Part shown: piece after piece, positions 52,406-62,551 of the stretch
Position numbering within the stretch: position 1 is the stretch's first letter
Layout of the letters: each line of letters opens with the position of its first letter
NCBI GenBank assembly: GCA_011772205.1
Contig: WVZY01000041.1
Coordinates: 62,001-126,000 of the forward strand
Reading direction: 5' to 3'
Length of the DNA: 64,000 bases
Source of the DNA: Candidatus Latescibacterota bacterium
Lineage (GTDB): Bacteria; Krumholzibacteriota; Krumholzibacteriia; WVZY01
Program-made: the position numbers and the translations under genes
The notes under the pieces: generated by a model
Seen by the model: the letters and a program-made list of their open reading frames with translations, nothing else
Databases searched by the model: none
Told to the model about the DNA's origin: nothing

Positions 52406-55400
52406 TTACTTTAGTAGTAACATTTTTCGTGTTGCCCGGAATCCCGAGCTCGTTTCCATCATACAAAAATATATTCCTGAAGAGACTCGTTGACCACCCT
52501 CATTATCCCCATCCCAACCCACTTCGTATCGTCCTGGATTTTTGTAGGTTACCAATAAGATCTTCACCAGGCTTCCCCGCACGTCGTAGATCTTGACGGC
52601 AACATTCCCCGCGCGGGCAACATCGTAACGGATGGCCGTTGAGGGATTAAAAGGATTTGGGTAGTTCTGGTAAAGGGCGGTTTCCGTGGGAAGTTCCGGT
52701 AGCTGATCTCTTTTCGATTCGATGAACTCTTCGCTCCCTACGAGGAGCACAAAGCGGGCGTCATCTTCTTTGGAAATGAAGGCCTTTTTCTTTTCGAAAA
52801 ATGTGTATTGGCCCTCTTCCCTGAGGTCGATTGCATGCTGCAAGCGGCGATCGATCAGATACAGCTTTGCGCTCGAGGGCGCCCGTTGGATTCCCTGGAA
52901 TTCGAGGACTACTTCGTCGCCGGCTGGCTCATCCGAGAAGCTTTTCGCCACGTCGAATTGCCAGATGTGGCCCCAAAGATCCCCGTTTTCGGAAGCGAGT
53001 GCTGTCAGCGCCTTGTCCAACCCAACATACTGCCCCCTGATGTCAACCGTGTAGTGGTCCGGGTGCTGCTTCCAGCTCACATGCGGGAAATAGAGCGAAA
53101 TTGCCTTCCCAGGGCTCAAAGGGGGCTCCGAGCGGTCGTGTTTGTCCCATTCCGTGGCAGCGCCTTGCGCCATGCCAATGACGTTGTGCCCATCCGCCAA
53201 TCCGCAGGAGAATGCGTGAATCTCGATCTGCCAGCAGCCGTCTGGCAAACCGGCAAAGATAACGGGAATTGTCTCGGCCATCACTGCCGGATCCTCCCTA
53301 GGCGGAAGCTTCAATGTGACAATTGTATCAGTGAGATTTTTTACCCAATAACCGTCGAAGGGCTCCAACGTCCCAACATCATATTGGTAGCTGCTACCGA
53401 TCCACCTCACCGGCGGTTCCACCACGATTCCCTCCGCATTCGCCATTGCGAGCGTATCCACCACACACGAATCCCATGCAATCGCAAAGGCGAATGGATC
53501 CCCGATCATGTTCCACCCTGGATGCAGCGTTACGGCGAAAAAGCTATCCGTCGGGGTTGATCGCCCCCTCGCGGGCCCCGTGTCGAGCCAGTGGGGATCC
53601 TTTGTGATCAACCAGTACCCTCTCCCTTGCTCGAAGGAGAATACAGTATCATTTGGCACTTCGACATATGCTGAGTCGTCCACATCGTAGGTAAACATGC
53701 GCCACCGAGTCTTATCCTGCCCACCGATGTTGTCCGTTAGAGCGCCGTTGATCGTGCCCTCCATCGCGAGAGGAATCGACATCATTCGATACTGCGCGGC
53801 CGAATGCTTTCTTGCCTCTTTGAGATCTTGCACCAACACACGGATCGTTCGAGGAGATTGATCGGGCTGGGATGGAGGATCGCACAGCGTATCCGTCAGC
53901 GTTACCACCTTCACCCAGTACTCGACTCCCCTCGCGCCAACGAGTGTGTCCGGTATCATAGCAAAGGGCAGCGGATCCCCAAGCTGGAGGCTCGCGCTAT
54001 CACCGGTTTCCTCCCCACCTTGGCGGAAGTGAAGCGAGCCTTCTTGAAAAATAGCCCCAACTGCTAGAGATACCTGCACTCGGATATCGAGGCCTTCGAG
54101 ATAATCAGGGCCCTCGTTTGGAATAGGTGTTGAAGATATGGAGGTTGGAGATTCTACTGCTTGAAAGAACACGGAGTCATCCGGTGCTCCGGGAGGATCT
54201 GTCGCATAGACGCCGCTGTTTTCGACTTTGACGTAATAGTCTACCCCGCCCTCGACGACATGATTGCCTGGAATTATGGCGATGAAATCATCCGCCGATT
54301 TGTGGAGAGAAACACTATCCACGAAAGTTCCGCCAATAATACTCGGCCGATGGTATAAAAAGCCACTCTCAACGTGAACCTCTGGAGCAGCCGTAATTAT
54401 GACGGTGAGGGCATCCCCTAACGGTACTTCCGGTGCAGGAGCAAGCAAGCGAGTTGACACCTCGAGAGCACGAATATCGGTACTCAGGGGAATAAATGTA
54501 AAAAGATTCTGCGGATCGTTGCTTTCGATCACAAGATCACCAGAAATAGAAGTTTGCAAACGGGGTTCGAGAAATACGGTGATATTCACGCTATCTCCAG
54601 GATCGATACTAAACGGAGCACTTAAATCGAGCCTCATTTCTGCTGATGGTAGAGTAATGTTCGAAATGTTCAGTAGCAAATTACCATCATTCGAAAACGT
54701 TAGTACAAGTGGTATCGTATCACCGACTGTGACAGTTGGGAATGAAAGCGTGGCCAGCGATAGTTCGATCATTGGTCTGAAGACTTCTATAGGTCCAACG
54801 TCTTTGTGATAGTTGGAAGCATGCTGAATCAAGGCCACTCGGCGCGGATTAGAGACGGTACGAAGCCGAAGGATTACATTACGCCTGTCGAAAAGCAGAA
54901 GAGAAGAAGTACCCCAATCAAATTGATGCTCGATGCCGTCGGGGGATGATGGCAAAGGACCGATTTTGGTCTGCTGACCCACAATATCAACAGGATTCCA
55001 GTCCAAGGCCCCTTCGTATTTGTATTCCGGAATAATCCATACCGAGTCAGACTCCAAGTCAACTACTGTTGCGCTGATACGATGAACATTGACAGCTGTT
55101 TGCTGAACATTGACAAATCTCAAATAAGCACCGTTATTGGGAAGATGATTCGTGGGCACAAGTGGATCGCCCTTATATGGAGGATTCTTCGGTGATTCAT
55201 ATAGAGTAGTATTTTGAAGATCATTGCCAACCACAAGATCTAAATCTCCATCTCCTTCCACATCGCCCAAGGCTACGCTAAAAGTGTGATAACCAGGCCC
55301 GGACCAAAAAGGAGTCGATGAGAATGCGCCGTTTTCATTCAAAAGGATTGTGTTGCTTTCACCGCCATTACTATTCCCACACACCAGATCGAGATCTCCG

Positions 55401-57424
55401 TCCCTATCCATATCCCCAAGTGCGATGCTTCGAGTATAGTTCGTCGGCCCCGACCAATCAGGTAATATCGAAAAAACCCCGCCCTGGTTCAGGTACATTG
55501 TTTTACTCACACTATAGTTCCCACACACAAGATCTGGATCCCCATCCCCATCAATATCTCCCAAGGCCACGCTATGTGTAGCATTCCCTGGTCCTGACGA
55601 CCAATCCGGAGTCGCTGATAACACACCCCCTGCATTTAGATAGAGTGTATTGCTACCCCAATTTCCGCAGACAAGGTCAAGATCCCCATCATCATCGACG
55701 TCTCCCAATTCTACGCTACGCGTATCATTCGCCGGGTCCGATAACCACGTTGGAATTGTTGAAAAAAGCGCGCCATCATTTAGGTAGAGCGTATTTCTAC
55801 CGCTGTTACCACACACGAGATCGAGATCCCCATCGCCATCGACGTCTCCCAATTCCACGCTATGCGTATCATTTGCCGGATCCGATAACCATGCTGGAGT
55901 CGTCGAAAAAAGCATCCCACCATTTAGGTAGAGCGTATTTTTACCGCTGTTACCACATACGAGATCGAGATCCCCATCACCATCGACATCCCCAAAACCC
56001 AAATCATTCGTGCTGTTCGCAGGTCCAGACGACCACGCCGGAGGAGTAATAAAAACTCCATTTTGATTCAAATAGAGAGCGTTGTTCTGACCATTGCTCC
56101 CACAAATCAAATCGACATCCCTATCGCCATCGACATCTTCGAGCGCAACACTTTGAGTGATGTTCCCTGCGACTGTCCACACAGGGACTGTCGTCAGAAT
56201 TTTCCCAAGATTTAGATAACATGTGTTGCTTTGAACATAGTTGCCGCAAACCAGATCTAGACCGCCATCCCCATTTACATCCGCTAACGCTATACCCATA
56301 GTGCTATTTGCTAATCCCGACGACCAATCTGGTGTCGTGGAGAAAATCCCGCCTATGTTCATATATACGGTATTGTTTTGACCGTAGTTGTTTCCGCAAA
56401 GGAAGTCGAGATCTCCATCCCCGTCTATATCTCCTAAGGCTATGCCGCTTGTAGAATTGGATGGCACTGATGACCAGATCGGAGATGAAGCAAAAATGCC
56501 TCCTTCGTTGAGATAGAGGGTGTTTACGCCGCTGTTTCCGCATACAAGATCGAGATCCCCGTCCCCATCCACATCTCCCAAGGCAACCGCCGTGGTGGTG
56601 TTCCCTGGTCCCGAGACCCAAGCTGGAGTCGTCGAAAAAAGGCCGCTTTGATTCAAATAGAGAGTATTGCTGCCCCCATTTCCGCAAACGAGATCGAGAT
56701 CACCATCCCCATTCACATCCCCTAAGGCAACACTATTCGTAAAATTTAACGGCCCCGACGACCAAACCGGAGTCGTTGAAAAAATACCACCTTCATTCAA
56801 ATAGAGGGTGTTGTTGTGTCCATCCGGAAACTGATCGCTATTTCCACAAACGAGATCGAGATCGCCATCTCCATCCACATCCCCGAGCGCTAAGCTCCGG
56901 GTATAATTTTGAGGTTCTGATGACCAGTCTGGCGTAGACGAGAAAATCCCTCGATCATTGAGATGAAGGGTATTCCTCCTTCCAGTTGCGCCATCGTAAC
57001 CATTTCCACACACGAGATCGAGATCGCCATCCCCATCCACATCTCCCAATGCGACGCTATACGCCACAAAATCTTGTTGCGCTTGCCAATACGGCAGCGT
57101 TGAAAACGTGCTCCCTTCGTTCGAGTAAAGGGAGTTACCGTCCATGTAATCATTTCCGCAAACGAGGTCAAGATACCCGTCTCCGTTTACGTCGCCAATT
57201 GCTAAGCTGAAGGTGTAACTCGATGGTCCGGAAGACCAGACAGGAAGGGTAGTAAGCAAGCTATCTTGTGCACTGCTTGGCATGGCATAAGCCGATAAAA
57301 CAAGCAGAGCCGAGAATAAATATAATATCTTTGAGCTGGGATAATGACGGTGACTGAGTTTAATCCGCGGGCGTTCCAGACACCTATTCTTGGGTGCGCT
57401 GAAGTATATGACTCGAACATGCAT
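52406..57424 (-). CDS. Giant secreted FG-GAP/VCBS double-propeller protein with FlgD-like tail
   Basis: ATG at 57424 gives 1672 residues; a TTG upstream is less likely. A positively charged N-terminal region and hydrophobic signal (SSKILYLFSALLVLSAYAM) come first. Fourteen tandem repeats of ~48 residues follow (WSSGPxNxTxSVALGDVDGDGDLDLVCGNxGxNTLYLNxGGxFSTTP), each with a DxDGDGDLD calcium-type motif: enough for two seven-blade FG-GAP propellers. Ig-like and bacterial-repeat domains follow, then a FlgD-type tail (NPFNPSTAIRYDV, KIYDVRGSLVKIL, VSSGIYFCMMETS, RKMLLLK). It is probably an adhesin or surface binder. Confidence 0.8.
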   Translation of the reverse strand: MHVRVIYFSAPKNRCLERPRIKLSHRHYPSSKILYLFSALLVLSAYAMPSSAQDSLLTTLPVWSSGPSSYTFSLAIGDVNGDGYLDLVCGNDYMDGNSLYSNEGSTFSTLPYWQAQQDFVAYSVALGDVDGDGDLDLVCGNGYDGATGRRNTLHLNDRGIFSSTPDWSSEPQNYTRSLALGDVDGDGDLDLVCGNSDQFPDGHNNTLYLNEGGIFSTTPVWSSGPLNFTNSVALGDVNGDGDLDLVCGNGGSNTLYLNQSGLFSTTPAWVSGPGNTTTAVALGDVDGDGDLDLVCGNSGVNTLYLNEGGIFASSPIWSSVPSNSTSGIALGDIDGDGDLDFLCGNNYGQNNTVYMNIGGIFSTTPDWSSGLANSTMGIALADVNGDGGLDLVCGNYVQSNTCYLNLGKILTTVPVWTVAGNITQSVALEDVDGDRDVDLICGSNGQNNALYLNQNGVFITPPAWSSGPANSTNDLGFGDVDGDGDLDLVCGNSGKNTLYLNGGMLFSTTPAWLSDPANDTHSVELGDVDGDGDLDLVCGNSGRNTLYLNDGALFSTIPTWLSDPANDTRSVELGDVDDDGDLDLVCGNWGSNTLYLNAGGVLSATPDWSSGPGNATHSVALGDIDGDGDPDLVCGNYSVSKTMYLNQGGVFSILPDWSGPTNYTRSIALGDMDRDGDLDLVCGNSNGGESNTILLNENGAFSSTPFWSGPGYHTFSVALGDVEGDGDLDLVVGNDLQNTTLYESPKNPPYKGDPLVPTNHLPNNGAYLRFVNVQQTAVNVHRISATVVDLESDSVWIIPEYKYEGALDWNPVDIVGQQTKIGPLPSSPDGIEHQFDWGTSSLLLFDRRNVILRLRTVSNPRRVALIQHASNYHKDVGPIEVFRPMIELSLATLSFPTVTVGDTIPLVLTFSNDGNLLLNISNITLPSAEMRLDLSAPFSIDPGDSVNITVFLEPRLQTSISGDLVIESNDPQNLFTFIPLSTDIRALEVSTRLLAPAPEVPLGDALTVIITAAPEVHVESGFLYHRPSIIGGTFVDSVSLHKSADDFIAIIPGNHVVEGGVDYYVKVENSGVYATDPPGAPDDSVFFQAVESPTSISSTPIPNEGPDYLEGLDIRVQVSLAVGAIFQEGSLHFRQGGEETGDSASLQLGDPLPFAMIPDTLVGARGVEYWVKVVTLTDTLCDPPSQPDQSPRTIRVLVQDLKEARKHSAAQYRMMSIPLAMEGTINGALTDNIGGQDKTRWRMFTYDVDDSAYVEVPNDTVFSFEQGRGYWLITKDPHWLDTGPARGRSTPTDSFFAVTLHPGWNMIGDPFAFAIAWDSCVVDTLAMANAEGIVVEPPVRWIGSSYQYDVGTLEPFDGYWVKNLTDTIVTLKLPPREDPAVMAETIPVIFAGLPDGCWQIEIHAFSCGLADGHNVIGMAQGAATEWDKHDRSEPPLSPGKAISLYFPHVSWKQHPDHYTVDIRGQYVGLDKALTALASENGDLWGHIWQFDVAKSFSDEPAGDEVVLEFQGIQRAPSSAKLYLIDRRLQHAIDLREEGQYTFFEKKKAFISKEDDARFVLLVGSEEFIESKRDQLPELPTETALYQNYPNPFNPSTAIRYDVARAGNVAVKIYDVRGSLVKILLVTYKNPGRYEVGWDGDNEGGQRVSSGIYFCMMETSSGFRATRKMLLLK
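55200..57245 (-). repeat. Fourteen ~144-150-bp tandem repeats inside the FG-GAP gene
   Basis: The repeats encode the propeller blades. Units nine to eleven (55660-56040) are unusually alike, for example ACCACATACGAGATCGAGAT and related phrases recur with few changes, which suggests recent duplication. In coding DNA these are prone to slip and to be misassembled. Confidence 0.8.
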
Positions 57425-57552
57425 GGCCAACGCCTTTTTAAAACAACACAATCACTAGGCAACATTTTATCGGCAGCTTCTGTATTGCCTTCATGAAATC
57501 CAAGTTAACCATTGAGGCTGTTCCTCATTTCAATAGTGAAATTCCTAACGCC

Positions 57553-59514
57553 TCACTTTCCCTTTCCCCTCTTTCCAAAAATCGCCGAAAACACCGACTT
57601 CTTCTCCCCGCTCCTCTCCATCTCCTGCAGGACAAAATCCTTGAACGACGATGAACAAACAGCCAGCTCTCCATTCGATTCGTGAAGGTACCCACGACGA
57701 ACGAGCTCCTCATTCACATAGTGGAATTTCTTGTTGATCGGCTTCGCATTGGCGATGCGACCGAGATTATCTTTCTCCACATCTTCCATTCTATCCCATA
57801 CAAAGCTGTAATGAGGCAGCAGCTCATCCATCATCGTCTTTGATATTTGGCTCCAGTCCGGCTCCGAATCTGGATTATCAACTAAATATTCGAAAACGCT
57901 CGAGCACGTCACTTGAAGATAAAACGGGAAGTTACCCGCTATCTCGATAATCTTATTCGCATAAGGCTCCAGCGGTACGCTCTCTGTTTTCGATGGCACT
58001 GTGATGAGCTCGAGCGCCTCCTCTCGACTGAAAGGACGAAGTGGAAGATTCGAAAAAATATTGAAAAACGGCGAATCGGAGATGTCTTTGTTGTGACACA
58101 TGAGCTGCAGTTCCTCAAACGATGATGTGACATAAGCAACTCTGAAGCTATTCGCAAGCGAGCGCAAAAATGAAAAAAACTCTTCGCCAAATTTTTCGTT
58201 TCGAGTTATGGACTCGAACTCATCCATTAGAACGATGATCCTCTTTCCTGCTTCGTGAATTGACTGGACAACCTGCTTGAGCTGATCCAGGCTTTTCTCT
58301 CGGGATGCATATTCGCCGCCGTCTTTTATTTCATAACTGAACACATTGAAGAGAAAATCGATGAACTTTGACACATCGAAATCGACGTCCCTCTGAAAGT
58401 CCAGGTAAACGAATATAGAGCTGCTGTAATTCTGCATGTGCTGCTTTCGGTTCCTCTTATGGTAGATGTAATTCAGCAAGGAAGACTTCCCGATACGCCG
58501 ATCCCCAACAATGGATATCGACTGCGGATGCGGGGCATCCAAGCGTGAGTAAATTTTGCGAATCTCTCTCTGTCTTCCAAAGAAGTCCGAGGGATTTTTG
58601 ATCATGACTCGGTTGAGATATGGATTTCTCTTACTGCTTCGATCTGTGAGTTCACCGACGCTCGAGATCGATACGGAAGTACTCTTTTCCATAGTGGCGT
58701 AGCTTTTCAACAGCATTTCGAACTCTTTGGCCAATTCGGAGAAATCCCTGGGCCTATTCCGCGGATCTTTTTCCAGGCATCTCAATAAAATGTTCTTCAA
58801 ATCCTCGGGAACTCCGTCGGCGAATTGGATGCTGGTCTCGTTTACGATCAAATACATGAGCGCTGTGGGATGTTCTGCTTCAAAGGGAAACCTGCCATTG
58901 ACAAGCCGAAACATACCCACACCAAATGAAAATATATCCGCCCTCTCATCGACTGGTTCTCCCCTGACTTGCTCCGGAGACATGTAATAAGGGGTTCCCA
59001 TCATAGCTTTTCCGGATGTGTGCGCATCTTCATCCAAGAGCTTTGCAAGGCCAAAATCCATTATTTTCACTTGCGCACTTTCTTCACCAACCTTATCCAC
59101 CATGATATTTTTCAATGTGAGATCCCGATGGATAATCTTTTGGGAATGGGCGTAAGCCATAGCGCTGCATACTTGAAATGCAAAAGTGCAGATCTGCTGG
59201 AGCGTTAGCGTCGTTTTGTTTATCAGCTCTCTCAAAGAAGGCCCGTTCACGAATTCCATCACAAGGTAAGGGCACGCCATGTGCTCACCACAATCGAAGA
59301 CTGTTACGATATTTGGGTGATTCATCTTCGCCATCGATTCTGACTCACGCATAAAGCGTTTCTCGAACGATCCCCCAAGACAGAACTCCTTGAGCATCTT
59401 TACGGCAACAGGTCGTTTGAGCTTCAGATCAAATCCGAGATAAACACTGCCAAATCCACCCTCACCGATTTTTTTCTCGATCTTGTATTTGCCTGCTATT
59501 ACCGTCCCTATCAT
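57553..59514 (-). CDS. Ser/Thr protein kinase fused to an AAA/STAND-like ATPase and winged helix
   Basis: 653 residues. Kinase domain at 1-265: GEGGFG loop 17-22, VAVK Lys39, FMRESE helix Glu, HRD 129-131, DFG 153-155, TPYYMSPE. The catalytic loop is unusual: HRDLTLKN replaces HRDLKPxN, with Thr for the usual Lys. The region 295-600 holds an ATPase with FFGRQREI, Walker A GDRRIGKS (337-344) and Walker B IIVLMDEF (431-432 DE). A helical/winged end follows. No membrane segment, so cytosolic. It overlaps the ATPase-PEGA gene's end (59517) by its ribosome site (GAGGAG). The natural partner is that protein, which carries a homologous ATPase. Confidence 0.85.
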   Translation of the reverse strand: MIGTVIAGKYKIEKKIGEGGFGSVYLGFDLKLKRPVAVKMLKEFCLGGSFEKRFMRESESMAKMNHPNIVTVFDCGEHMACPYLVMEFVNGPSLRELINKTTLTLQQICTFAFQVCSAMAYAHSQKIIHRDLTLKNIMVDKVGEESAQVKIMDFGLAKLLDEDAHTSGKAMMGTPYYMSPEQVRGEPVDERADIFSFGVGMFRLVNGRFPFEAEHPTALMYLIVNETSIQFADGVPEDLKNILLRCLEKDPRNRPRDFSELAKEFEMLLKSYATMEKSTSVSISSVGELTDRSSKRNPYLNRVMIKNPSDFFGRQREIRKIYSRLDAPHPQSISIVGDRRIGKSSLLNYIYHKRNRKQHMQNYSSSIFVYLDFQRDVDFDVSKFIDFLFNVFSYEIKDGGEYASREKSLDQLKQVVQSIHEAGKRIIVLMDEFESITRNEKFGEEFFSFLRSLANSFRVAYVTSSFEELQLMCHNKDISDSPFFNIFSNLPLRPFSREEALELITVPSKTESVPLEPYANKIIEIAGNFPFYLQVTCSSVFEYLVDNPDSEPDWSQISKTMMDELLPHYSFVWDRMEDVEKDNLGRIANAKPINKKFHYVNEELVRRGYLHESNGELAVCSSSFKDFVLQEMERSGEKKSVFSAIFGKRGKGK

Positions 59515-59516
59515 CG

Positions 59517-61721
59517 TTACTCCTCGTTAGCCAAGAAATCGTGTTGGACATTCAATGTCTCGCCCGACTTGAGCTCGACTGTTCTACGCACAGTTTCAAA
59601 TTGTGGATGTCGCAATTCGATTTCATATGTGCCCGGATCGAGCTCTATGGGAAAGTGAACGGCGTATTCATTTTTTAGCTCCCCATTGATCCAGAGCTCG
59701 GCATATGGATTTATCCGGAAAATCAATTTGCCCGGCGGGAGCTTCGTAAGTGTTTTCTCTATGAGATTATTAGGTACTGGAACGACAATCCTTTGCCGAA
59801 CCGAGCTGAATCCATTTTTTTGCAGTTCTAATCGGTGTTCCCCCTGCGTTACCGAAGGAAGACTTTTGGGAGTTTCTCCCAGATATGCGCCATCCAGATA
59901 AACCCTTGCCGCCGCTGGATCGGTTACAATGGTGAGAGGCGATGTGGCCTTGGAAAAATCGTGGTGAACGACAACTGCTGAATCCTCGTAAACTTCGACA
60001 CTCTGATATACGCCATCACTATATTCGGAAAGTCTTACGACGATTTGATGAGGCTCGTTGACAGAAAGGCTATCGACCGCGGCTGGAGTCGCAAGGCCGG
60101 TATCTTCTTCATCCACGAATATTCGCGCTCCAGGAGGAGACGAGGTAACAGAAACGCTGCCGGTTTGCTCTTCGAGGGATATTGTTCTGTTCACTGGAAC
60201 ATCTTTCTCGAACTCCAATGTATCCATATAATCGATGTATCCGGTATGTTCGACTCTAAGAACGAGTTGACCTAACGGAACCGCTGCACCTTGAAGGGGC
60301 GACTTGCCGATCCATTTCCCCCCCAAAAATACATTCGCCTCGGAGGGCTCCGTATTGAGTGTGAGGGATGTGGAATCGGCCCATAACGACGCCAGCGGAA
60401 GTGGCGCTCCTCCTTGCATGAAGCTTCTCAAGGTCAAAAAAGCTACTATGGCGAGAACTGCTCCGCCAACTCCCAGATACACCCATCCTCGCCTGCTCCG
60501 AGGTCTGCTGATACTGATTCCCTCTCCGAGCTCGCGGCCTTCGCTGGTGATCTCATCGATCACCTGCCAGATGGAATGCATTCGCATGGCCCATTGTCGC
60601 CATAAATCCATCTTGAAGCTGTAGCGCTCACCCTCGCTGTCCTTATTCAGAAGGTCATGGTGAAAGAGCTTTTCCGCGGTTTCATTCAGTTTGTTTGCGT
60701 CGATCCGGTAACCAATGTCTTCGTCCGAAGCAAAAGCAATGATTTCCCTCGTGGGAACAGGTCGTACCTCCCGTTTGTTGAGTTCCGCAATGATGGAAAG
60801 GCTGAGCTTTTCGAGGCCCGTGAGAGACGTCCAGGCGAAGATCATCTGCGGCAGCGGATTTTCGATTATTTCATCAACAACTTGTTGGACATCTTCAACA
60901 CCCACGTCATGCTTTTGGCTTTCATTCAGGTGGTCAACAAGCGACTGGCACAAAACCTGAGCATAGAAAGGCTGCCCCGCAGTGAGTCCATATATCATCC
61001 CAGGGACGTTTTCTTCATACTGAACCAGACCACTAACCGGCTCATGAATCAACCGAAGCGTGTCGGTATTGCTCAAGAAACTGATCCTGCGGTGAAGCGC
61101 CTTGCCAAGAAAATGTCCCCAGTAGCGAGAACTCCTGGACTCCAATTTGTCGGAACCCGTGAAGACCATAAACACGCCTTCTTTGTGCTCCATCCAGTTC
61201 GCCAGCAGGTTGAGAACATCCAAGCTGATCAACTGCTTCTCGATTAGAGATTCGATAATTTCATATTCGTCGAACATCAGGATAATTTTCTTCCCCTGCA
61301 TGATCGAACTGATCTTGCGAACGAGTTTTTCGAATGCCGTATAAGGATTCTCGCCCGCCTCGGCTTCGTAATCTCGCTCGAATGATATTTCTGGTTTTTC
61401 GATGGCGGATACTATCTCTTGAGCCAACTTTCCTAGAAAATCCCGGTCACTCTGAATCGTCATCGATTGCATATCGATGAGAACAGGAACGAAATCTTCT
61501 CCTAGCCGCCCATTTTGAATCTGAAACAAGATGGACGTCTTCCCGCTCCTGCGCGCCCCACAGAGAACCAGCAAACCGCCTTTCTCGCCGCCGGTGACCT
61601 TTTTTCGGATATACGCAAAATCGTCCTGCCGGCCGAAAAACATCTTACGGTCTTTGATGGGATTGCCAACAATATAAGGGTTAGGGATCGGTTTGAAATT
61701 ATCGTTGCCTGCAGCACACAT
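59517..61721 (-). CDS. Membrane-spanning AAA/STAND-like ATPase with four PEGA domains
   Basis: 734 residues. NPYIVGNPI...MFFGRQDD precedes Walker A GARRSGKT (55-62) and Walker B ILMFDEYE (151-152). The ATPase reaches to about 390, with C-terminal winged-helix-like segments. One transmembrane helix is at 413-434. Four PEGA-type repeats then fill 453-731 (GGKWIGKSPLQGA, VDEEDTGLATPAA, DGAYLGETPKSLP, and a final NPYAELWINGELK). So the ATPase is cytosolic and the PEGA array is outside. The first gene of the operon encodes another PEGA protein and the last the kinase with the same type of ATPase (FFGR signature). Function unknown; likely signal transduction across the membrane. Confidence 0.85.
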   Translation of the reverse strand: MCAAGNDNFKPIPNPYIVGNPIKDRKMFFGRQDDFAYIRKKVTGGEKGGLLVLCGARRSGKTSILFQIQNGRLGEDFVPVLIDMQSMTIQSDRDFLGKLAQEIVSAIEKPEISFERDYEAEAGENPYTAFEKLVRKISSIMQGKKIILMFDEYEIIESLIEKQLISLDVLNLLANWMEHKEGVFMVFTGSDKLESRSSRYWGHFLGKALHRRISFLSNTDTLRLIHEPVSGLVQYEENVPGMIYGLTAGQPFYAQVLCQSLVDHLNESQKHDVGVEDVQQVVDEIIENPLPQMIFAWTSLTGLEKLSLSIIAELNKREVRPVPTREIIAFASDEDIGYRIDANKLNETAEKLFHHDLLNKDSEGERYSFKMDLWRQWAMRMHSIWQVIDEITSEGRELGEGISISRPRSRRGWVYLGVGGAVLAIVAFLTLRSFMQGGAPLPLASLWADSTSLTLNTEPSEANVFLGGKWIGKSPLQGAAVPLGQLVLRVEHTGYIDYMDTLEFEKDVPVNRTISLEEQTGSVSVTSSPPGARIFVDEEDTGLATPAAVDSLSVNEPHQIVVRLSEYSDGVYQSVEVYEDSAVVVHHDFSKATSPLTIVTDPAAARVYLDGAYLGETPKSLPSVTQGEHRLELQKNGFSSVRQRIVVPVPNNLIEKTLTKLPPGKLIFRINPYAELWINGELKNEYAVHFPIELDPGTYEIELRHPQFETVRRTVELKSGETLNVQHDFLANEE

Positions 61722-61792
61722 TTGATATCCTCATGGAATTCGCACCGGCTAATCTCGCCGGTCCGGAGCACCAAGCCGCAATCGAAATGGTT

Positions 61793-62551
61793 TCATTGTG
61801 TGGGGGGTGGCGGCGGCAGCGGCAGCGGTTGCTCCTCGGCCGGCTGCCCCTCTTCACCGGCGATACTCAAGCCAACAGCAAGTAGAACCCCCGTGAGGAC
61901 AGCGGGACCTATTCTATAGAGCCACCACCTCTTGTTGCGCTGCCGGTCCATTGACACTTCCAAATTTAGCTTGGCGTTTGGGTCCACGTGAATGCTCTCT
62001 GAATAATCGTGATACCCCGATTTTGTTACCATGAGATTGTATTCACCGGCCCGCACCAGCTCGAGATGCAGAGGAGTCTCGCCCTTGAAATCATCGTCTA
62101 GAAATATCCGGCACTCCTTTGGCTTAGTGATGGTTAAGGACCCATACAATTCGCTTCTCAGTTGGGCGTACATCTCATTCATCCTGGGAGGGAAACTAAT
62201 CGGATCGGCCTCCAAATCCGGAAATATCAAGACAGCCTCCTGAGCTTTTTCACCAGCGTTTTCCTCGTCCCCTTTCAAAAGGAGCGTGGATACGAGCTGA
62301 TTATAGGCATGCCTTAGAATCTCCTCCGAATTGCTGTATTCCTCGATGATCTGGTTGAGAATCTCGATTGCACGATCGTACTCGCCATTCAGACGAAGAG
62401 AGCTGACCTCATCCCATTTCTGAACGATCGATTCCTCTTGATCTGCACCGAAAACGAAGGAGGGGAATACGAGAGTAACTGCGAGGACAATCGACAGCAG
62501 CCGCTGGCAAGGCACTTGAAAATCGCCTCCACCGCGTGATATGAAGGTCAT
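61793..62551 (-). CDS. Exported TPR-like/PEGA protein with a C-terminal membrane helix
   Basis: 252 residues starting MTFISRGGGDFQV. A signal peptide ends near residue 35 (SFVFGADQ). Residues 40-130 are helical repeats of TPR type (NGEYDRAIEILNQIIEEY, GDEENAGEKAQEAVLIF). A PEGA domain lies at ~138-200 (KECRIFLDDDFKGETPLHLELVRAGEY). A transmembrane helix (212-231) and a proline-rich tail follow. A GGGAGG ribosome site and a promoter-like sequence (62622-62651) are upstream. It is the first gene of the three-gene operon. Confidence 0.8.
   Translation of the reverse strand: MTFISRGGGDFQVPCQRLLSIVLAVTLVFPSFVFGADQEESIVQKWDEVSSLRLNGEYDRAIEILNQIIEEYSNSEEILRHAYNQLVSTLLLKGDEENAGEKAQEAVLIFPDLEADPISFPPRMNEMYAQLRSELYGSLTITKPKECRIFLDDDFKGETPLHLELVRAGEYNLMVTKSGYHDYSESIHVDPNAKLNLEVSMDRQRNKRWWLYRIGPAVLTGVLLAVGLSIAGEEGQPAEEQPLPLPPPPPTQ

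Follow-up and report, generated by a model that had tools for sequence, protein, structure and literature searches.

Three genes on the minus strand of the window (the whole 64,000-nucleotide stretch of DNA analysed here) form a same-strand cluster, and all features described below lie on that strand. Gene A (61793-62551; 252 aa) encodes an exported TPR and PEGA protein; gene B (59517-61721; 734 aa) encodes an N-terminal STAND-type ATPase followed by one transmembrane (TM) helix and four PEGA stretches; and gene C (57553-59514; 653 aa) encodes a Hanks-type protein kinase fused to an nSTAND2 ATPase. The gap between A and B is 71 bp and that between B and C is 2 bp, the latter in agreement with an earlier, sequence-only reading of this DNA. 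Gene F (52406-57451; 1681 aa) lies 101 bp downstream of C and encodes a large exported beta-propeller protein of FG-GAP/VCBS-type repeats, with a C-terminus resembling FlgD_ig and Por_Secre_tail domains in Pfam. Scans for promoters and terminators returned about as many sites as shuffled sequence does.

The ATPase domain of B spans residues 14-387 (60561-61682), with Walker A GARRSGKT, Walker B LMFDEYE and a TAGQP motif. Its closest Pfam family, ATPase_2/AAA_22, matches residues 28-251 at 32.6 bits, just under the cut-off of 33.2; PDB sequence searches with the B protein and with a B profile gave zero matches; and no nSTAND2 match was found in B at E values up to 0.1, its relation to nSTAND2 appearing only in profile-profile comparison with C. 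Hydropathy predicts one TM helix at residues 413-431 (60429-60485), beyond which a domain scan places the four PEGA stretches (60168-60371, 59955-60161, 59781-59939 and 59541-59645; 59541-60371 overall), totalling 138.9 bits in Pfam. Because basic residues occupy the N-terminal, cytosolic flank of the helix, the PEGA domains are placed outside, and the trans-envelope topology previously proposed for B is thereby supported.

Gene A carries one PEGA domain (61946-62128, or G000:C6:123946-124128; 43.4 bits in Pfam) and weak Pfam matches to TPR_6/TPR_14 (E 6e-4 to 2.5e-3). Hydropathy marks a signal-like N-terminus (residues 11-29) and a C-terminal helix (residues 214-232), after which the protein ends in an acidic and proline-rich tail, PLPLPPPPPTQ. 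Orthologues of A stand in the matching position at eight other loci, and the tail region (61793-61870), consisting of the helix and PLPxPPxPP, is conserved among them; its topology is puzzling, as basic residues precede the helix, and it may be a sorting signal. The same genome holds two tandem paralogues of A at L051:4776-7516 (G000:C33), homologous to it by hhalign (100%, E 1.5e-41), and the C-termini of these paralogues resemble the ends of outer-membrane barrels.

The C protein, in which hydropathy finds no TM helix, matches Pkinase at 193 bits and nSTAND2 at 137.7 bits (against a cut-off of 24) in Pfam. Its kinase domain (58747-59487; residues 10-256) contains the VAVK form of the VAxK lysine motif, HRD, DFG and an APE-like SPE, and its ATPase domain (57685-58626; residues 297-610) has Walker A GDRRIGKS and Walker B VLMDEFE; compared with PDB, a profile of C finds an archaeal ATPase (2fna, E 1.6e-8) and, weakly, TnsC. 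The catalytic loop (59107-59130) reads HRDLTLKN, so that the threonine noted earlier at position 133 is real, and the lysine of HRDxKxxN is missing: the loop is HRDL[TS]L[KR]N in all seven orthologues that cover it. The 26 other kinases that were read from this genome all have that lysine, which leaves C as the exception among 27, and the kinases of distant C-type proteins retain it. Kinase activity is consequently not assured, and the change may affect specificity or regulation, or mean that activity is lost. Ser/Thr kinases have the loop HRDxKxxN, as against the tyrosine-kinase loop HRDLAARN, with its basic residue two places further on (PMC4771162). The tyrosine-kinase-like spacing of the loop in C could indicate an unusual substrate preference, but the segment GTPYYMSPE (GTPxYMSPE) is of the Ser/Thr type. 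PADLOC matches of C to PD-T4-6 and mad6 were considered as a sign of a defence gene and set aside, since they span the generic kinase domain and reflect how common it is. Hanks-type kinases are numerous in the genome (G000, 4.1 Mb), where Pkinase (PF00069) has 35 matches, about 29 of them full-length (L130-L159); the genome also encodes a single-protein receptor with a kinase, a TM helix and two PEGA domains (L050:6433-8238, G000:C14), possibly a simple counterpart of the operon.

Homology between the ATPases of B and C extends along their length (hhalign 99.9%, E 9.6e-33; 319 columns at 24% identity), which makes them paralogues, as the sequence-only reading had supposed, and not members of unrelated families. 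That reading also described intact Walker A and B motifs in both, which is borne out in B, in C and in each of their full orthologues; erosion is seen only in some distant C-type proteins (for example, GELRSGRS in L052 and DHF in L046). STAND NTPases carry a GxP-type motif and, C-terminal to the NTPase core, a helical region; here B has TAGQP and C has AGx[FH]P, offset by one residue, and structure models are too poor for judging the fold (AlphaFold of the B and C ATPase domains from two-row alignments, the window and one other sequence, gave pLDDT 48 and 45). C and distant B-type proteins retain an arginine beyond Walker B (FLRSL); the B family of the window has LANW/LAYW in its place, an asymmetry that may matter. 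Across 23 B/C pairs the distances of the two ATPases correlate with r 0.93, and with r 0.88 across the 18 pairs that remain once the window family is thinned (Mantel p 1e-4), species ancestry not having been removed; the two ATPases appear to coevolve, with part of the correlation reflecting shared species ancestry.

The order A-B-C is found in seven genomes: the window, G028, G053, G013, G033, G024 and L055 (the public contig JAUWTE010000313, with a B orthologue), although in G033, G024 and L055 an outer gene of the three runs into the contig end. B-C stands without A in G004, and A-B is seen at contig ends in G001 and G026. Nearly full-length orthologues of B are present in G028, G004, G033, G053, G013 and G024; G001 has a fragment, and so has G026, there at a contig end. 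Identities are about 50-57% for B and 55-63% for C, and across relatives B and C are separated by 2 bp or overlap slightly. The upstream flanks differ: the window has a kynureninase-like gene there, G028 a regulator-propeller protein, and G033 and G024 papain-like proteases; those proteases, which carry lectin-like and sorting-tail-like domains, lie directly upstream of A in the two genomes (L041:6237-8303 and L044:7585-9861). Since the order recurs in seven genomes with different flanks, the cluster is more than chance, and the proposal of a real operon, which rarity of these neighbours in related genomes would have undone, is upheld. The cluster is patchy, being present in 11 of the 78 genomes of the class sample.

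That reading had also described a three-gene system with no obvious substrate gene; the A-B-C cluster stands, but the description is incomplete, as F is a fourth member in most relatives. An F orthologue directly follows C at five of the seven loci with a readable downstream side: after 101 bp in the window, with a 4-bp overlap in G028, after a 1-bp gap in G053, and with overlaps in G035 and G024. In G004 and G013 it does not adjoin C and is found elsewhere in the genome. Long copies of F are 42-52% identical outside the repeats, and therefore make up one family and are not merely repeat proteins. Of the 78 genomes, 9 of the 11 that have the cluster contain F (E<1e-28), as do 2 of the 67 that lack it (Fisher p 1.6e-8), and within family f4 (E<1e-100) the counts are 6 of 7 against 0 of 13 (p 1.8e-4), these p values being inflated by shared ancestry, which the tests leave in. 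Copies of F also lie away from the cluster, and these genomes hold many FG-GAP repeats; despite that abundance, the whole-genome occurrence test makes it unlikely that F adjoins C by chance only.

When 387 genomes were scanned with a profile for each ATPase type, the B-type profile (A1) matched 46 of them and the C-type profile (A2) 31 (E<=1e-8); in a second phylum A1 matches were found in 19 of 82 genomes (E<=1e-15). The 23 pairs compared, which were selected because both partners were seen, are all on the same strand, and the partners are mostly less than 120 bp apart or overlapping. By domain scans the extra domains on the B side are PEGA, TPR, GAF, WD40 and HEAT. On the C side a kinase is N-terminal in the window, L052 and L166 and C-terminal in L047 and L160; TIR is C-terminal in L048 and N-terminal in L173; CHAT is N-terminal in L094 and C-terminal in L163; and L046, L095, L097, L164 and L170 have no recognised effector. 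That the effector sits at either end of C points to repeated independent fusions around a constant ATPase pair. The operon appears to be the trans-envelope form of a broader group of paired-ATPase receptors, with variable sensor-like domains on one partner and an interchangeable output enzyme on the other.

Not every relative is a simple pair. Strong B-type matches stand without a C-type neighbour in L098 and L108, and a C-type gene with a truncated kinase and no adjoining B (L104:7593-9035, G005) may be decaying or carry a sequence error; at L047:3087-6332 (G183:C40) an insertion that weakly matches a response regulator splits the B-type ATPase. Genome G343 encodes a 1757-aa protein with two such ATPases and beta-propellers; its two loci (L099:7334-12607 and L100:1774-7131) specify chains of about 1760-1785 aa, with two ATPases per chain and the propellers on the first, and a further ATPase gene adjoins each. 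A pattern scan of viral contigs found no relatives, and a plasmid search gave one weak match (25% identity).

The second phylum also holds operons close in plan to that of the window. In G465 (L166) and G466 (L167) a PEGA-TM-B gene is followed by an exported gene of 312-347 aa and then by a kinase-nSTAND2 gene, Pfam having been run on B, the middle gene and C of L166 and on B and the middle gene of L167; G460 (L168) shows the matching layout by profile and similarity. Identity to the window is about 40% for B and 35% for C. The end of the middle gene (RKWF) resembles that of an outer-membrane barrel, although its putative barrel, like that of the L051 paralogues, is read solely from the tails. 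From the layout, A was suspected to be homologous to this exported gene, which hhalign does not support (probability 7.9). In G465 a cyclase-like gene directly follows the kinase-nSTAND2 gene (L166:9000-10823).

The system had been called undescribed, and that description fails: the ATPase of C is Pfam nSTAND2, and a two-gene operon with nSTAND2-family STAND NTPases has been reported, in which each gene encodes a related STAND NTPase, one of them inactive, with GT4 or HEPN effectors, and which is predicted to act against invaders (Kaur et al. 2021, eLife 10:e70394, Fig. 6C, PMC8195603). Besides that paper, whose own source data may list further architectures, the literature searched contained no relevant paper using the name nSTAND2. 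Our operon shares with the published one two adjacent, co-directional genes (2 bp apart here) with a STAND NTPase core in each, a predicted hetero-multimer and variable effectors on one protein. It differs in that both ATP sites are intact, whereas one is eroded in the published form; in having a Hanks-type kinase as output, whereas the published effector, usually GT4 or HEPN, sits on the inactive NTPase; in that B is transmembrane, carries PEGA domains and lacks an nSTAND2 match, whereas both published NTPases are nSTAND2; and in the additional genes A and F. A conserved arginine finger is a trait of both published proteins; here a possible counterpart, the FLRSL arginine, is present in C and replaced by LANW/LAYW in B. 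With a common plan but several defining features failing, the operon is set apart as a variant and not a member.

Other known systems resemble the operon in part. The iSTAND ternary (MoxR-vWA) conflict systems include TM-PEGA proteins (Kaur et al. 2020, eLife 9:e52696) and so combine, as here, a STAND-like core with TM-PEGA parts near the envelope, but our cluster has no MoxR/vWA gene, its ATP-site motifs are intact and its output is a kinase. PASTA kinases (PknB/Stk1), like the L050 receptor, couple extracytoplasmic repeat domains to a cytosolic Hanks kinase; here, by contrast with both, sensor and kinase are on separate proteins joined via two ATPases, and C, unlike the PASTA kinases, has no PASTA repeats (NF033483 294 bits against a cut-off of 450). 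Single-chain STAND/NLR proteins (NACHT, AP-ATPase, Avs) likewise have sensor, STAND ATPase and effector parts, whereas in our operon these are split across two ATPase subunits and the sensor is outside the membrane.

On balance we lean towards a receptor of the envelope in which a hetero-STAND ATPase switch governs the kinase. B would be an inner-membrane protein with the ATPase on the inside and the string of PEGA domains on the outside, A and the secreted F would probably be outside alongside the PEGA arms of B, and C would be cytosolic, a fusion of the partner ATPase and a protein kinase. The PEGA arms would sense a change at the envelope or the surface, and this would alter the ATPase of B; the B and C ATPases would form a single hetero-oligomeric, nucleotide-controlled switch; and assembly or opening of that switch would activate, cluster or release the kinase. 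We infer the physical complex of B and C, the direction of the signal, the roles of A and F, and the activity and substrate of the kinase. The coupling of surface binding through paired ATPases to the kinase, already suggested by the sequence-only reading, is favoured by domain swapping and by the apparent coevolution of the pair. Counted against this receptor are the score of B below the cut-off of its nearest Pfam ATPase family, the basic residues N-terminal to the last helix of A (a poor fit, under the positive-inside rule, with an exported N-terminal part), the absence of A beside B-C in G004, the location of F elsewhere in G004 and G013, the missing catalytic-loop lysine of the kinase, the poor AlphaFold models of the ATPase domains (pLDDT 48 and 45), and the shared species ancestry that underlies part of the correlated distances and of the co-occurrence of F. 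More tentatively, and with somewhat less confidence than disbelief, we suggest a split membrane-spanning STAND receptor, in which an external signal passes to one ATPase subunit, then to a second, different ATPase subunit and on to a kinase, as one of a general two-ATPase class with freely exchanged sensor domains (PEGA, TPR, HEAT, GAF, WD40) and outputs (kinase, TIR, CHAT).

A less favoured account makes the operon an envelope machine: the paired ATPases would drive, or set the timing of, F's export, its folding or its placement on the surface, A would act as an adaptor in the periplasm, and the kinase would set activity. What is established for STAND-type ATPases, though, is that they work as switches and not as motors. 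In favour of such a machine, no other fourth gene is linked as often as F, which accompanies the cluster even where the two are not linked; several PEGA domains are present in A and B; and exported or beta-barrel-like genes recur in other B-C clusters (L166-L168, L170). Against it, the distant TIR and CHAT pairs are without such cargo, and F is itself equipped with a signal-like N-terminus and a domain resembling a sorting tail, so that we regard this account as improbable. Functional independence of genes that are merely neighbours is more improbable by far: A and F are sometimes missing from the cluster (G004, G013), but the order is conserved with different flanks, genes overlap, B and C evolve in a correlated manner, the ATPases are fused in G343, and a matching architecture exists in a second phylum. 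The strongest competitor, although we still think it unlikely, is a conflict system for anti-phage defence or self-killing, with the ATPase pair as an NLR-like alarm, the kinase as a toxic or shut-down effector and PEGA as a mere envelope tether. nSTAND2 two-gene operons are predicted to counter invaders (Kaur 2021), TM-PEGA proteins occur in iSTAND conflict systems (Kaur 2020), the TIR and CHAT domains of relatives are typical conflict effectors, and the distribution is patchy (11/78 genomes); yet sensor and effector are unchanged across widely diverged orthologues, where rapid swapping within the clade would be expected, the linkage is to a structural secreted protein, F, and not to defence genes, the viral-contig and plasmid searches yielded next to nothing, and the PADLOC matches cover a generic domain.

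If the envelope receptor that we favour is real, sensor and effector would be divided between two ATPases, with the sensor outside, and bacterial Hanks-kinase signalling would be linked to NLR-like switching. Most of what is understood of STAND proteins (NLRs, the apoptosome, Avs) concerns receptors made of a single chain in the cytosol, and this small operon would allow a test of whether a STAND pair carries a signal across a membrane. It would also suggest a possible role for PEGA domains, as well as one for a family of large secreted FG-GAP proteins.
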